64,000 bases of DNA from Hyphomicrobiales bacterium (GTDB taxonomy: Bacteria > Pseudomonadota > Alphaproteobacteria > Rhizobiales > Beijerinckiaceae), in NCBI GenBank assembly GCA_019075905.1, contig JAGXAM010000001.1, forward strand, positions 186,001-250,000. Direction: 5' to 3'. Shown here piece by piece: positions 48,343 to 52,139 of this stretch. The position numbers and the translations under genes were made by a program. Each line of letters opens with the position of its first letter. Positions within the stretch are counted from its first letter, which is position 1. A model generated the notes under the pieces. The model was given only the letters and a program-made list of their open reading frames with translations, searched no databases and was not told where the DNA came from.

Positions 48343-49956
48343 TCAATGGCCACCGCCGCCGGGGGCACCGCCGGGTTTGGGGCGCTTCATCAGCGGCACC
48401 AGCACAATCAGCGACAGGAACAACCAGGTCAGCGCATAAAAGACATCGGCCAGCGACATGACCGTGGCTTGCTGGCGCACCAGCAGCATCATCTGCTTGA
48501 TCGCCGCCAGATGGGCATTGCTGCCCTTTGAGGCAAAGGCATGAGTCATGGCCGCGAGGCGCTGGACCGCGATCGGCCGCGACCAGTTGAAATCGTCACG
48601 CAGCCTTTGCAGGTGCAGGTCGAGCCGGTTGTTGATCATGGTGTTGATCATGGCGAGACCGACCGCGCCGCCAAGGTTGCGGGTCAGATTGTAAATGCCC
48701 GAGGCATTCTTCATCTTGCTGGGCGGCATGGTGCCGAGCGACAGGTTGTTGATGGGCACCATGCACAGCATCAGCGAGCCGCCGCGCAGCAATTGCGGCA
48801 TCAGCAACTCCCAGAAATCCCAGTCCTTGGTCATGAATGAGGCCTGGTAAGTGCCCAGCGAAAAGCCAGCAAAGCCGAGCGCGATCATCAGGCGCGGATC
48901 CATGCGGGTGATCAGGCGCCCGACAATGGGGGCACTGACGAACATGGTCAGACCGCTGACAAACATGGTCTCGCCGATCTGCAGCGAATCATAGCCGCGC
49001 ACGCGGGCAAGATAGACCGGATAGAGGAAGGTCAGGCCATAGAGGCCGATACCCATGACAAAGGACAGCATCGAGCCTGTCCAGAAATTGCGGTTGAGGA
49101 AGGCGGACAGATCGACAATCGGGTGTTTCGAGCGGAAGGCCTGCCAGAAAAATACGAGGGCACCGACCGCCGATACGGTGGCCGTCAGGGTGATGGTCGA
49201 GTCGCTGAACCAGTTGTTCTGCGGACCTTCTTCCAGCGTATATTCGAGCGCGCCGAGGAAGGCGGCCATGCCTATGAGGCCGGTCCAGTCGAAGGTTTCG
49301 AGAATGCTGAGGTCGGGCTCATCGAAATCCACCAGGTTCCAGGTCGCGACCGTCACCAGAATGCCGGGGATGATGTTGATCAGGAACAGCCAGTGCCACG
49401 AGAACATTTCGGTGAGATAGCCGCCGACCGTGGGCCCGATGGTGGGCCCGAGCGTGGCGACAAGACCGATGACCGGGGTGATCACCGGCATTTTCGAGCG
49501 CGGGAAGATGGTGTAGGCGGAGGCAAAAACCGTCGGAATCATCGCGCCACCGATAAAGCCCTGCAGGGCCCGGAACACGATCATCTGATCAAGCGTTGTC
49601 GACTGCGAGCAAAGGAAGCTGGCAGTGGTGAAACCGGCGCAGGACGCGGCGAAAAGGTAACGAGTCGAGAAGGCCCGCGACAGGATCCCCGACAGCGGAA
49701 TCATGATGACTTCGGCGATGAGATAGGAGGTCTGCACCCAGGCGACCTGATCGGGCGTTGCCGACAGGCCGGCCTGAATCTCCGACAGCGAGGCCGACAC
49801 CACCTGGATGTCGAGGATCGCCATGAACATTCCGAACACCATGCAGAAAAACGCCACCAGCTTGCGCCGGTCGATGGTGTCTTCGGGAGCAGCGACCACC
49901 GCGGGGCGCGACGTCACGGCTCCAGCCGGCGCATTCTGGACAATGGCTTGGGCCAT
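48343..49956 (-). CDS. emrB: EmrB-like MFS multidrug efflux permease (DHA2)
   Basis: A 537-residue permease of about 14 helices. Landmarks are AILDIQVVSASLSEIQAGLS, motif A region GILSRAFSTRYLF, RALQGFIGGAMIPTVFASAY and motif C-like TLGPTIGPTVGGYL. The pattern is that of EmrB, which works with a periplasmic adaptor (EmrA) and an outer-membrane channel. I chose ATG 49956, 10 bp behind the adaptor stop; the frame is open to 49998. The C-terminus is glycine- and histidine-rich (GGAPGGGGH). No outer-membrane channel gene lies in the operon. It is controlled together with emrA. Confidence 0.92.
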   Translation of the reverse strand: MAQAIVQNAPAGAVTSRPAVVAAPEDTIDRRKLVAFFCMVFGMFMAILDIQVVSASLSEIQAGLSATPDQVAWVQTSYLIAEVIMIPLSGILSRAFSTRYLFAASCAGFTTASFLCSQSTTLDQMIVFRALQGFIGGAMIPTVFASAYTIFPRSKMPVITPVIGLVATLGPTIGPTVGGYLTEMFSWHWLFLINIIPGILVTVATWNLVDFDEPDLSILETFDWTGLIGMAAFLGALEYTLEEGPQNNWFSDSTITLTATVSAVGALVFFWQAFRSKHPIVDLSAFLNRNFWTGSMLSFVMGIGLYGLTFLYPVYLARVRGYDSLQIGETMFVSGLTMFVSAPIVGRLITRMDPRLMIALGFAGFSLGTYQASFMTKDWDFWELLMPQLLRGGSLMLCMVPINNLSLGTMPPSKMKNASGIYNLTRNLGGAVGLAMINTMINNRLDLHLQRLRDDFNWSRPIAVQRLAAMTHAFASKGSNAHLAAIKQMMLLVRQQATVMSLADVFYALTWLFLSLIVLVPLMKRPKPGGAPGGGGH

Positions 49957-49966
49957 GGCCGGTGCC

Positions 49967-51247
49967 TCACTTTTCGTGGCTGGTGAAACCAAAGGCACTC
50001 ATCAGCGAGGGCCGGGGGGTATTGGGATCACGGGTATGGACCGCCGCTACCACCGACAGGCCGGGCATCAGCTTGCCGCTGGTGGCAATGTCGCCGTCAA
50101 AGGCGATACGCACCGGCACGCGCTGGACGATCTTGGTGAAGTTGCCGGTGGCATTGTCGGGCGGCAGCAAGGAAAAATCTGCTCCGGTGCCGGGTGCGAA
50201 AGATTGCACGGTGCCATGCACCACCTTGCCGCCGAGCGCATCGATGGTGAGATCGACCTTCTGGCCGACCTTCATCGCACGCAGATCGGTTTCCTTGAAA
50301 TTGGCTTCAACATAGAGGGTCTTGAGCGGCACGATGGCCATCAATTGCTGGCCCGGCTGCACATATTGGCCCTTGAACACCGACGTGTTGGCGACGATGC
50401 CATCAAGGGGCGCACGCACCTGCGTGAAGCTGAGATCACGGCGTGCCTTGTCGAGGGCAATCTGCAATTCGGCCCGCGCCTGGATGGCTTCGGTGACCTG
50501 CGCCTTCATCACCTGCTGGTTGGCCTTGGCGGCTGTCAAAGCTGAACCGGCGGCCTTGTAGCTTGCCTGGGCGCCGGCAAGCGCGGCACTGGCACTGTCA
50601 CGCACCATGCGGGCCTGATCGAGCGTCTGCTGGCTGCCGAAATGCTTGGCGAGCAGGGTTGCGGCGCGCCCGAAACTGGCCTCGGCATTGACGAGCTGCG
50701 CCTTGGCGGCCACCACCTGCGTCTGCGCTGCCACGGCCTGGGATTGCGCCCCGGCAATGGCCGCCGTCTGGGCGAGCGCTTGCTGCTTCAGCCGGGCAAT
50801 GGTGGCGTCCTGGGTGTCGATCTTTTGCTGAGCTGCATCGACTGCCAGCTGGTAATCGCCCTGATCTATGCGGGCCAGAACCTCGCCGGCATGGACCGGC
50901 GTGTTGTCGATGATTGGCACAGCCGTCAGATAGCCCGGCACCTTGGCGGAAATGGTGGTGATGTCGGCTTTGATATAGGCATCATTGGTGGAATAGATGA
51001 ACCGCCCGCTGACGAAATAATCATAGCCCTTCACCGCCCCGAAGCCGAGCAGGCCCAGAATCACCACAGGCAGGATGATGTTGCGGCGCGAGCGCTTCGG
51101 CTTGACGACGACAGCTTCCTGAAGCGTGTCCGTGGGCAGCGTCGTCCCGCCCCCAGGCAGCGTTGCCACCTGCTGATTGGCGCTGGCTGGCGCGTGACCG
51201 GGGGCAATAGTGCCTTCGGCTTCGGTGGTGTCGGTTTCGGTTGGCAT
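49967..51247 (-). CDS. emrA: EmrA-like HlyD family efflux adaptor
   Basis: A 426-residue membrane fusion protein: cytoplasmic N-terminus of about 50 residues, one membrane helix (NIILPVVILGLLGFGAVKGY), a lipoyl half-motif (YIKADITTISAKVPGYL), a long periplasmic coiled-coil hairpin rich in Ala and Gln (about 145-270), then VRAPLDGIVANTSVFKGQYV and a beta-barrel. It links EmrB to an outer-membrane channel. ATG 51247 was chosen from the charged N-terminus; the frame is open to 51346 but that would run through the operator. The start lies 43 bp downstream of the first TetR operator. Confidence 0.92.
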   Translation of the reverse strand: MPTETDTTEAEGTIAPGHAPASANQQVATLPGGGTTLPTDTLQEAVVVKPKRSRRNIILPVVILGLLGFGAVKGYDYFVSGRFIYSTNDAYIKADITTISAKVPGYLTAVPIIDNTPVHAGEVLARIDQGDYQLAVDAAQQKIDTQDATIARLKQQALAQTAAIAGAQSQAVAAQTQVVAAKAQLVNAEASFGRAATLLAKHFGSQQTLDQARMVRDSASAALAGAQASYKAAGSALTAAKANQQVMKAQVTEAIQARAELQIALDKARRDLSFTQVRAPLDGIVANTSVFKGQYVQPGQQLMAIVPLKTLYVEANFKETDLRAMKVGQKVDLTIDALGGKVVHGTVQSFAPGTGADFSLLPPDNATGNFTKIVQRVPVRIAFDGDIATSGKLMPGLSVVAAVHTRDPNTPRPSLMSAFGFTSHEK

Positions 51248-51289: not shown

Positions 51290-51306
51290 AACCGAACCGT
51301 TCGGTT
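51290..51306. promoter_or_regulatory. TetR-type operator 1 (perfect 17-bp palindrome)
   Basis: AACCGAAC-C-GTTCGGTT is a perfect inverted repeat with one central base. It lies between the candidate emrA promoter and the emrA start. A second copy is at 51352-51368, 62 bp away centre to centre. It is the likely binding site of the adjacent TetR protein. Confidence 0.85.
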
Positions 51307-51315
51307 CATTTGCGC

Positions 51316-51344
51316 TTGACATATCAGACCAAAGGCGATAAATC
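51316..51344 (+). promoter_or_regulatory. Candidate tetR promoter
   Basis: TTGACA (51316-51321) and, after 17 bases, TAAATC (51339-51344) point towards tetR. It lies between the two operators and overlaps the opposite promoter. Confidence 0.5.
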
Positions 51345-51346
51345 AA
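51318..51346 (-). promoter_or_regulatory. Candidate emrAB promoter
   Basis: On the minus strand TTGATT (51341-51346) is followed, after 17 bases, by TATGTC (51318-51323), pointing towards emrA. It almost exactly overlaps the tetR promoter. Confidence 0.45.
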
Positions 51347-51351
51347 GCCCG

Positions 51352-51368
51352 AACTGAACGGTTCGGTT
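51352..51368. promoter_or_regulatory. TetR-type operator 2
   Basis: AACTGAAC-G-GTTCGGTT has the same palindrome as operator 1 with one mismatched pair. It lies 45 bp before the tetR ATG, so binding would block tetR transcription (autoregulation). Confidence 0.8.
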
Positions 51369-51413: not shown

Positions 51414-52139
51414 ATGATCAGCGACCACACAGATGACAACGTGCTGTCGGCCGAAGATTGCGTCACGAAGCCCGATGCGCATCATGAAACGAACCATCAT
51501 GATACGAACCAAAAGGAGCCGGGTTCTTGTGAGCCCGACAGTGCCAAGCTACGCCAGATTTTCGCTGGCGCGCGCGCCATATTCCTGCGCGATGGTTATG
51601 ACGGCGCAAGCATGAATGACATAGCGCGGACGGCGGCGGTTTCCAAGGGCACGCTTTACGCCTATTTTGATGGCAAGGAACGGCTTTTCGAGGCGCTGGT
51701 GCGGTCTGACCGGCAGCGCCTGGCCGAGCAGCTCTGCCGTTTCGATGATGACCAGGCCGATGTCGCGGATGTTTTGCGGCGCTTCGGCACCGGGCTGCTG
51801 ACGACCATGATGCAGCCGGAACAACTGGCTTTCATGCGCATGGTGATCGGCATTGTCGGGAAATTGCCGGCGACCGGACAGGCGGTCAATGATGCCGGGC
51901 CGCAATATGCTGCCGACCGCCTTGCCGCCTGGCTGGAAATCCAGAACCGCAACGGCACGCTGAATGTGCCCGACCCGGCGCTGGCCGCGCATCAGTTCGT
52001 CGAATTATGCAAGGCTGGCGTGTTCACGCGCTGCATTCTGGGCGCCGGGCCGGCTCTGGCACCGGGTGAAATCGCCACCGGCGTAGAAGCGGCGATTGAT
52101 ATGTTTTTGCACTATTATCGCCGACGTGCCATAATTTGA
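51414..52139 (+). CDS. TetR/AcrR family transcriptional regulator of emrAB
   Basis: A 241-residue repressor. A hydrophilic, His-rich leader of about 42 residues precedes the TetR DNA-binding domain: FAGARAIFLRDGYDGASMND, then the helix-turn-helix IARTAAVSKGTLYAYFDGKE. The ligand domain is helical. It is divergent from emrAB, and two matching palindromes lie in the 166 bp between them, so it very probably represses the pump and itself until a ligand is bound. ATG 51414 was chosen as the first in frame; a later start closer to the HTH would remove the unusual leader. It is followed 37 bp later by the ABC exporter gene. Confidence 0.9.
   Translation: MISDHTDDNVLSAEDCVTKPDAHHETNHHDTNQKEPGSCEPDSAKLRQIFAGARAIFLRDGYDGASMNDIARTAAVSKGTLYAYFDGKERLFEALVRSDRQRLAEQLCRFDDDQADVADVLRRFGTGLLTTMMQPEQLAFMRMVIGIVGKLPATGQAVNDAGPQYAADRLAAWLEIQNRNGTLNVPDPALAAHQFVELCKAGVFTRCILGAGPALAPGEIATGVEAAIDMFLHYYRRRAII

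Follow-up and report, generated by a model that had tools for sequence, protein, structure and literature searches.

How a single intergenic region could control two genes that are read away from each other, an efflux pump operon and the gene of a TetR-family regulator, is the question raised by this locus. The window, i.e. the whole stretch of 64,000 nucleotides of Hyphomicrobiales DNA that was analysed, carries emrA on the minus strand and tetR on the plus strand, and the region between them holds two palindromes as well as the promoters of both genes (Table 1). The ORF list also permits a longer emrA frame starting from the TTG at 51346. When the regulator was subjected to a PDB sequence search, TetR-family chains were found among the matches listed (60 of 99), with a best E value of 8e-24.

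Table 1. Genes, predicted operators and predicted promoter elements of the emrAB–tetR locus (positions in the window).
Feature	Position	Strand	Remarks
emrB-like DHA2 family MFS permease	48343..49998	-	TIGR00711; GTG start at 49998 assigned mechanically
emrA-like HlyD periplasmic adaptor	49967..51247	-	426 aa; ATG at 51247 taken as start
Operator A, emrAB side	51290..51306		perfect palindrome AACCGAAC-C-GTTCGGTT, i.e. AACCGAACCGTTCGGTT
Mirror-image promoter pair	51316..51346		TTGACATA-N15-TAAATCAA; each -35 overlaps the opposite -10
tetR promoter, -35	51316..51321	+	TTGACA
emrAB promoter, -10	51318..51323	-	TATGTC; 17 bp spacer; predicted start near 51311
tetR promoter, -10	51339..51344	+	TAAATC; 17 bp spacer; predicted start near 51351
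emrAB promoter, -35	51341..51346	-	TTGATT
Operator B, tetR side	51352..51368		AACTGAAC-G-GTTCGGTT, one mismatch, i.e. AACTGAACGGTTCGGTT
tetR-family regulator	51414..52139	+	241 aa; TetR_N and TetR_C_7 (AefR-like C-terminal domain)

The initial annotation had described a pair of palindromes, one perfect and one with a single mismatch, and the coordinates agree with this, the centres of A and B lying at 51298 and 51360, 62 bp apart. With up to three mismatches the operator pattern is matched twice in the window against a mean of 0.13 in shuffled sequence, and two matches were reached in 2 of 100 shuffles. Perfect 17 bp palindromes of the 8+1+8 type are as such not unusual (5 in the window where 1.6 are expected), and the significance of the operators therefore derives from the presence of two copies of one sequence together with their conservation and not from the palindrome alone.

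To characterize this conservation, 130 related tetR loci were collected from relatives and from named genomes, and 120 were retained after 10 duplicates had been dropped. Since the sample drew on the best 80 of 567 relatives, close kin and Methylobacterium are over-represented among these 120 loci. In 147.7 kb of sequence upstream of the 120 tetR genes, the core ACCGAAC-N-GTTCGGT was detected with at most one mismatch at 190 sites, a count that allows overlaps, compared to 0.1 in shuffled sequence; at least one such site was present in 111 of the loci, and a divergent emrA was found at 113. When up to three mismatches were allowed, two sites were found in 86 loci, one in 31 and none in 3, among the latter L092, which has almost no upstream sequence. 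A pair was defined here as neighbouring sites 36-90 bp apart with at most three mismatches each, and some of the 86 include weak sites. As the core is conserved at related tetR loci, there is good support for assigning the palindromes as putative TetR operators that serve tetR and emrAB, and the earlier proposal that such operators bracket overlapping divergent promoters of emrAB and tetR probably holds.

Across the 207 sites of the 120 loci, the commonest change in the operator was C to T at arm position 3, with 42 cases in the tetR-distal arm and 12 in the tetR-proximal one.

A scan of 119 family genomes for the exact operator gave matches in 40 of them, compared to 2 for the reversed control pattern, and 60 exact places were counted by eye in those 40 genomes. 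Four of the exact places lie away from tetR loci: two are located before pump genes, and two inside or near unrelated frames, the latter with A or T at the centre. The exact operators of genomes G155, G167, G168, G171 and G172 stand outside this comparison with tetR positions. In two genomes of genus g9 an exact operator is located shortly before HlyD pump genes (L170, ~2510-2524; L171, ~1906-1920), and these operators are likely to represent a second target in trans. An RND pump gene beside the operator was confirmed by Pfam in L170 only, and for the tetR homologue of this genus no emrA match was found within the fetched locus. It had also been suggested that further copies of the palindrome might define a regulon; in the 2.88 Mb genome of the window no further copy with two or fewer mismatches was found. 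A wider regulon in this genome was rejected, as one further match was detected at three mismatches and the reversed control pattern gave five.

Between the operators, the hexamers and 17 bp spacers of TTGACA-17-TAAATC (plus strand) and TTGATT-17-TATGTC (minus strand) were confirmed as annotated. The interval 51316-51346, in which the transcription starts had been expected, was not well chosen: if transcription begins 6-7 bp downstream of each -10 hexamer, both starts fall outside it (Table 1). Relative to these predicted starts, operator A covers approximately +6 to +22 of the emrAB transcript and operator B approximately +2 to +18 of the tetR transcript. Each -10 hexamer shares only 3 of 6 positions with TATAAT, and a generic sigma-70 scan, which demands T at the last -10 position, detected no promoter at the locus. 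Weak-looking -10 hexamers are to be expected here, because most of the alphaproteobacterial promoters analysed in PMC8407463 are described as lacking T at -7. For S. meliloti, the promoter consensus is quoted in PMC2873474 as CTTGAC-N17-CTATAT.

The interlocked arrangement recurs in the relatives. A TTGA/TCAA pair 24-36 bp apart was present in 28 of the 86 two-site loci, and in 26 of these 28 the offset was exactly 30 bp; an offset of 28-32 bp was observed in 27 of the 86, compared to a mean of 0.1 after shuffling. Among the 19 cluster representatives, positions 6-7 of the element were TA in all 19, position 24 was A in 18, and a G followed TCAA in 17. TTGA/TCAA served as the selection criterion for these representatives, and the conservation of TA and A lies beyond it. 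The exact 30 bp pair is absent from 60 of the 86 two-site loci. The loci in which no TTGA/TCAA pair was detected have other promoter arrangements; they include 40 of the 86 (Methylobacterium, Microvirga and others) whose operators are 65-71 bp apart.

For genome scans that ignored operators and genes, a promoter pattern was used that had been obtained beforehand from the window and related loci. In 199 family genomes the element was found at 17 places (reversed control: 1 genome) and in 397 genomes of the order at 17 places, two of which had already been counted (reversed control: 4 genomes). The combined total is 32 places in 576 distinct genomes, and the exact element is absent from the majority of these genomes. 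Two operators flank the element at 27 of the 32 places, and at 24 of the 27 neither site has more than one mismatch. A tetR homologue was located in the same locus at all 27 operator-flanked places and emrA at 24. Within the genome of the window the element is unique at up to one mismatch, and four other places require two.

The remaining 5 of the 32 places (L139 and L164-L167) are without such operators. At L139 and L175 (2042-2072) the element stands beside a different TetR (TetR_C_11) and another palindrome, CGAAACG-TAC-CGTTTCG, while L164-L167 are identical 31-mer copies from four genomes of one genus. The copy in L166 is located directly upstream of a gene labelled MarR-like from its sequence. 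In L140 and L148 the operator-promoter-operator module is kept together with tetR, but the gene divergent from tetR encodes a MacB/FtsX-type ABC permease and is not emrA.

The interlocked promoter pair is unusually well conserved and is a stronger feature of this locus than either operator phasing or relative site strength, although it had received little notice earlier. It is possible, and we put this forward tentatively, that the 31 bp element TTGACNTA-N15-TANRTCAA constitutes a bidirectional promoter class of its own, with each -35 also serving as the -10 of the opposite promoter. Across an alphaproteobacterial order this element would have been retained almost exclusively at the centre of a TetR operator-promoter-operator module, which would make the orientation of the polymerase itself part of the switch. 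No published report of an interlocked element of this kind was found among the literature text-search matches listed, and the occurrence of the operator core in the literature that was examined was a primer.

The intergenic region very probably serves as the regulatory region of an autoregulated, EmrR/FrrA-like efflux switch, in kind an ordinary self-regulating pump switch. In this switch, RNA polymerase would land on one 31 bp platform in either of two orientations and transcribe emrAB leftward or tetR rightward. Because the -35 of each promoter overlaps the -10 of the other, presumably only one polymerase could be accommodated at a time. A TetR dimer on A or B would lie immediately beyond the start of one promoter and reach the upstream edge of its counterpart, and would thus block polymerase by steric occlusion. 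The argument for the upstream edge uses the usual size of the polymerase footprint. Occupation of A and B together would give firm and balanced repression of pump and regulator, the latter being autoregulation, and a small toxic compound that the pump exports would be expected to release TetR and thus switch on both genes.

Each operator might instead serve its own gene only, A for emrAB and B for tetR, so that control would not be shared. Such a division would suit the position of each site immediately downstream of a predicted transcription start. However, both sites lie within the usual polymerase footprint of both promoters, and a single site is found in 31 of the 120 loci, including L007, which has the tetR-side site alone. 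We consider separate control rather unlikely, while the loci with one detected site are compatible with steric occlusion at a shared platform.

The initial annotation had further proposed that a centre-to-centre distance close to six helical turns places two TetR dimers on the same face of the DNA and allows cooperative or looped binding. At this locus, 62 bp indeed corresponds to 5.9 turns. To analyze helical phase, the modal spacing of each of 32 tetR clusters (65% identity) was used. Spacings ranged from 38 to 75 bp, with 62 bp as the most frequent modal value (8 of the 32 clusters). When 10.5 bp per turn was assumed, 16 clusters were within 0.2 turn of phase, but 13 were at 0.3-0.7 turn, i.e. 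in antiphase, and the Rayleigh test gave a weak, non-significant phase trend (R 0.26, p 0.12; with 10 bp per turn p was 0.18, with 11 bp 0.09). A conserved helical phase of the operator pair, as for a looped or cooperative class, was thus not found across the 32 clusters. In the 28 loci that contain the element its width is fixed, whereas the emrA-side site slides between 12 and 18 bp from the -35, and operator spacing tracks this distance with r 0.95. The single-site loci also speak against a need for paired sites. In addition, the TetR of Tn10 is described as binding its two operators independently (PMC11686294), and short DNA loops are described as costly (PMC4207663). Cooperative or looped binding that depends on a six-turn spacing is accordingly regarded as improbable, and occlusion by dimers at either site is preferred.

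Whether the emrAB site is the stronger one, as had been annotated, depends on the group of loci. Three loci of the genus of the window (L004-L006) combine a perfect emrA-side site with a tetR-side site that carries one mismatch, in line with that claim. As a rule it does not extend to the family: among the 86 two-site loci 56 tie, 18 favour the emrA-side and 12 the tetR-side site, and a fourth locus of the same genus (L007) lacks an emrAB-side site. Counted by cluster, 21 tie, 7 favour the tetR-side and 4 the emrA-side site. The greater strength of the emrAB-side site is thus a local feature and not a family rule.

Binding of the palindromes by the adjacent TetR is deduced, and a regulator encoded elsewhere could in principle occupy them; the presence of a tetR homologue at all 27 operator-flanked promoter places, including three without an emrA match, makes this very unlikely. 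Least probable of all is that the palindromes act as RNA hairpins (terminators or attenuators) in the leaders, for although two terminator-like matches, both at site B, were found compared to 0.3 in shuffles, the same sequence flanks the promoter pair on either side in 86 loci, and the most variable arm position, position 3, changed on one side only 44 times and in paired fashion 5 times among 207 sites, so that sequence rather than pairing appears to be kept.

The EmrR-emrAB system of Sinorhizobium meliloti, on which studies were reportedly published by Rossbach (2014) and Santos (2014), resembles the locus in combining a TetR-like regulator with emrAB. EmrR is described in a review as repressing emrAB, with luteolin disturbing its binding in vitro (PMC6780985). 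In the main text of the paper on S. meliloti transcription starts, the emr genes are not mentioned by name. Sinorhizobium sp. K101 (L177), whose record is without gene annotation, carries tetR and emrAB in the same order, and judged by gene order and genus this is presumably the EmrR locus. Its two sites, with 1 and 2 mismatches, are 62 bp apart and enclose TTGACATA...ATATCAA with a 30 bp offset, whereas the regulators are 34% identical. The locus of the window thus shares with the EmrR/FrrA-like systems a TetR-family regulator divergent from an emrAB pump, and its palindromic operator recurs in the tetR-emrAB intergenic region of this Sinorhizobium record.

For FrrA of Bradyrhizobium, the site sequences are said to be given by Wenzel (2012). 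FrrA is described as a TetR regulator adjoining the genistein-responsive pump FreCAB (PMC4070704); a TetR regulator beside a pump is common to both loci, but FreCAB is counted with the RND pumps in that source and the pump here belongs to the MFS. PmeR of Pseudomonas syringae is reported to repress itself and the divergent mexAB-oprM from two palindromic sites, and to be released by flavonoids (PMC12421961). The TetR-like regulator, the divergent pump and the two palindromic sites are shared with our locus, whereas the two sites of PmeR overlap and its pump is of the RND type.

In Tn10 tetR/tetA, one repressor acts at tetO1 and tetO2 around overlapping divergent promoters, and pump and repressor are co-controlled according to PMC11686294. 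The arrangement of one TetR, two operators and overlapping divergent promoters is the same here, but the operator sequence is unlike tetO2 as quoted in that source, which places it outside the tetO group, and the regulator differs in carrying a TetR_C_7 domain. In E. coli acrR/acrA, the repressor gene and the pump are described as sharing one promoter that polymerase can use in two orientations, and E. coli bidirectional promoters as having a common -10 and distances between starts that are commonly 10, 18 or 23 bp (PMC12825309). As with acrR/acrA, the regulator and pump promoters of our locus would share a polymerase platform with two orientations. The shared -10 of the bidirectional promoters of Warman et al. 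is not found in it; instead -35 overlaps -10, and the starts, which are predicted, lie about 40 bp apart and not 10-23 bp.

The order operator, interlocked mirror-image promoters, operator provides a sequence rule that points to efflux switches in environmental Hyphomicrobiales. According to a statement in a 2026 paper, nothing was known about the control of bidirectional promoters (PMC12825309). The natural variation of operator spacing around a fixed promoter core offers a ready test of repressor control over a two-way promoter. On a plasmid of Paracoccus yeei (L178, 2917-2937), a single operator, TTGACCGAACCGTTCGGTCAA, is located between tetR and emrAB, and its outer arms resemble a -35, reading TTGACC in both directions.
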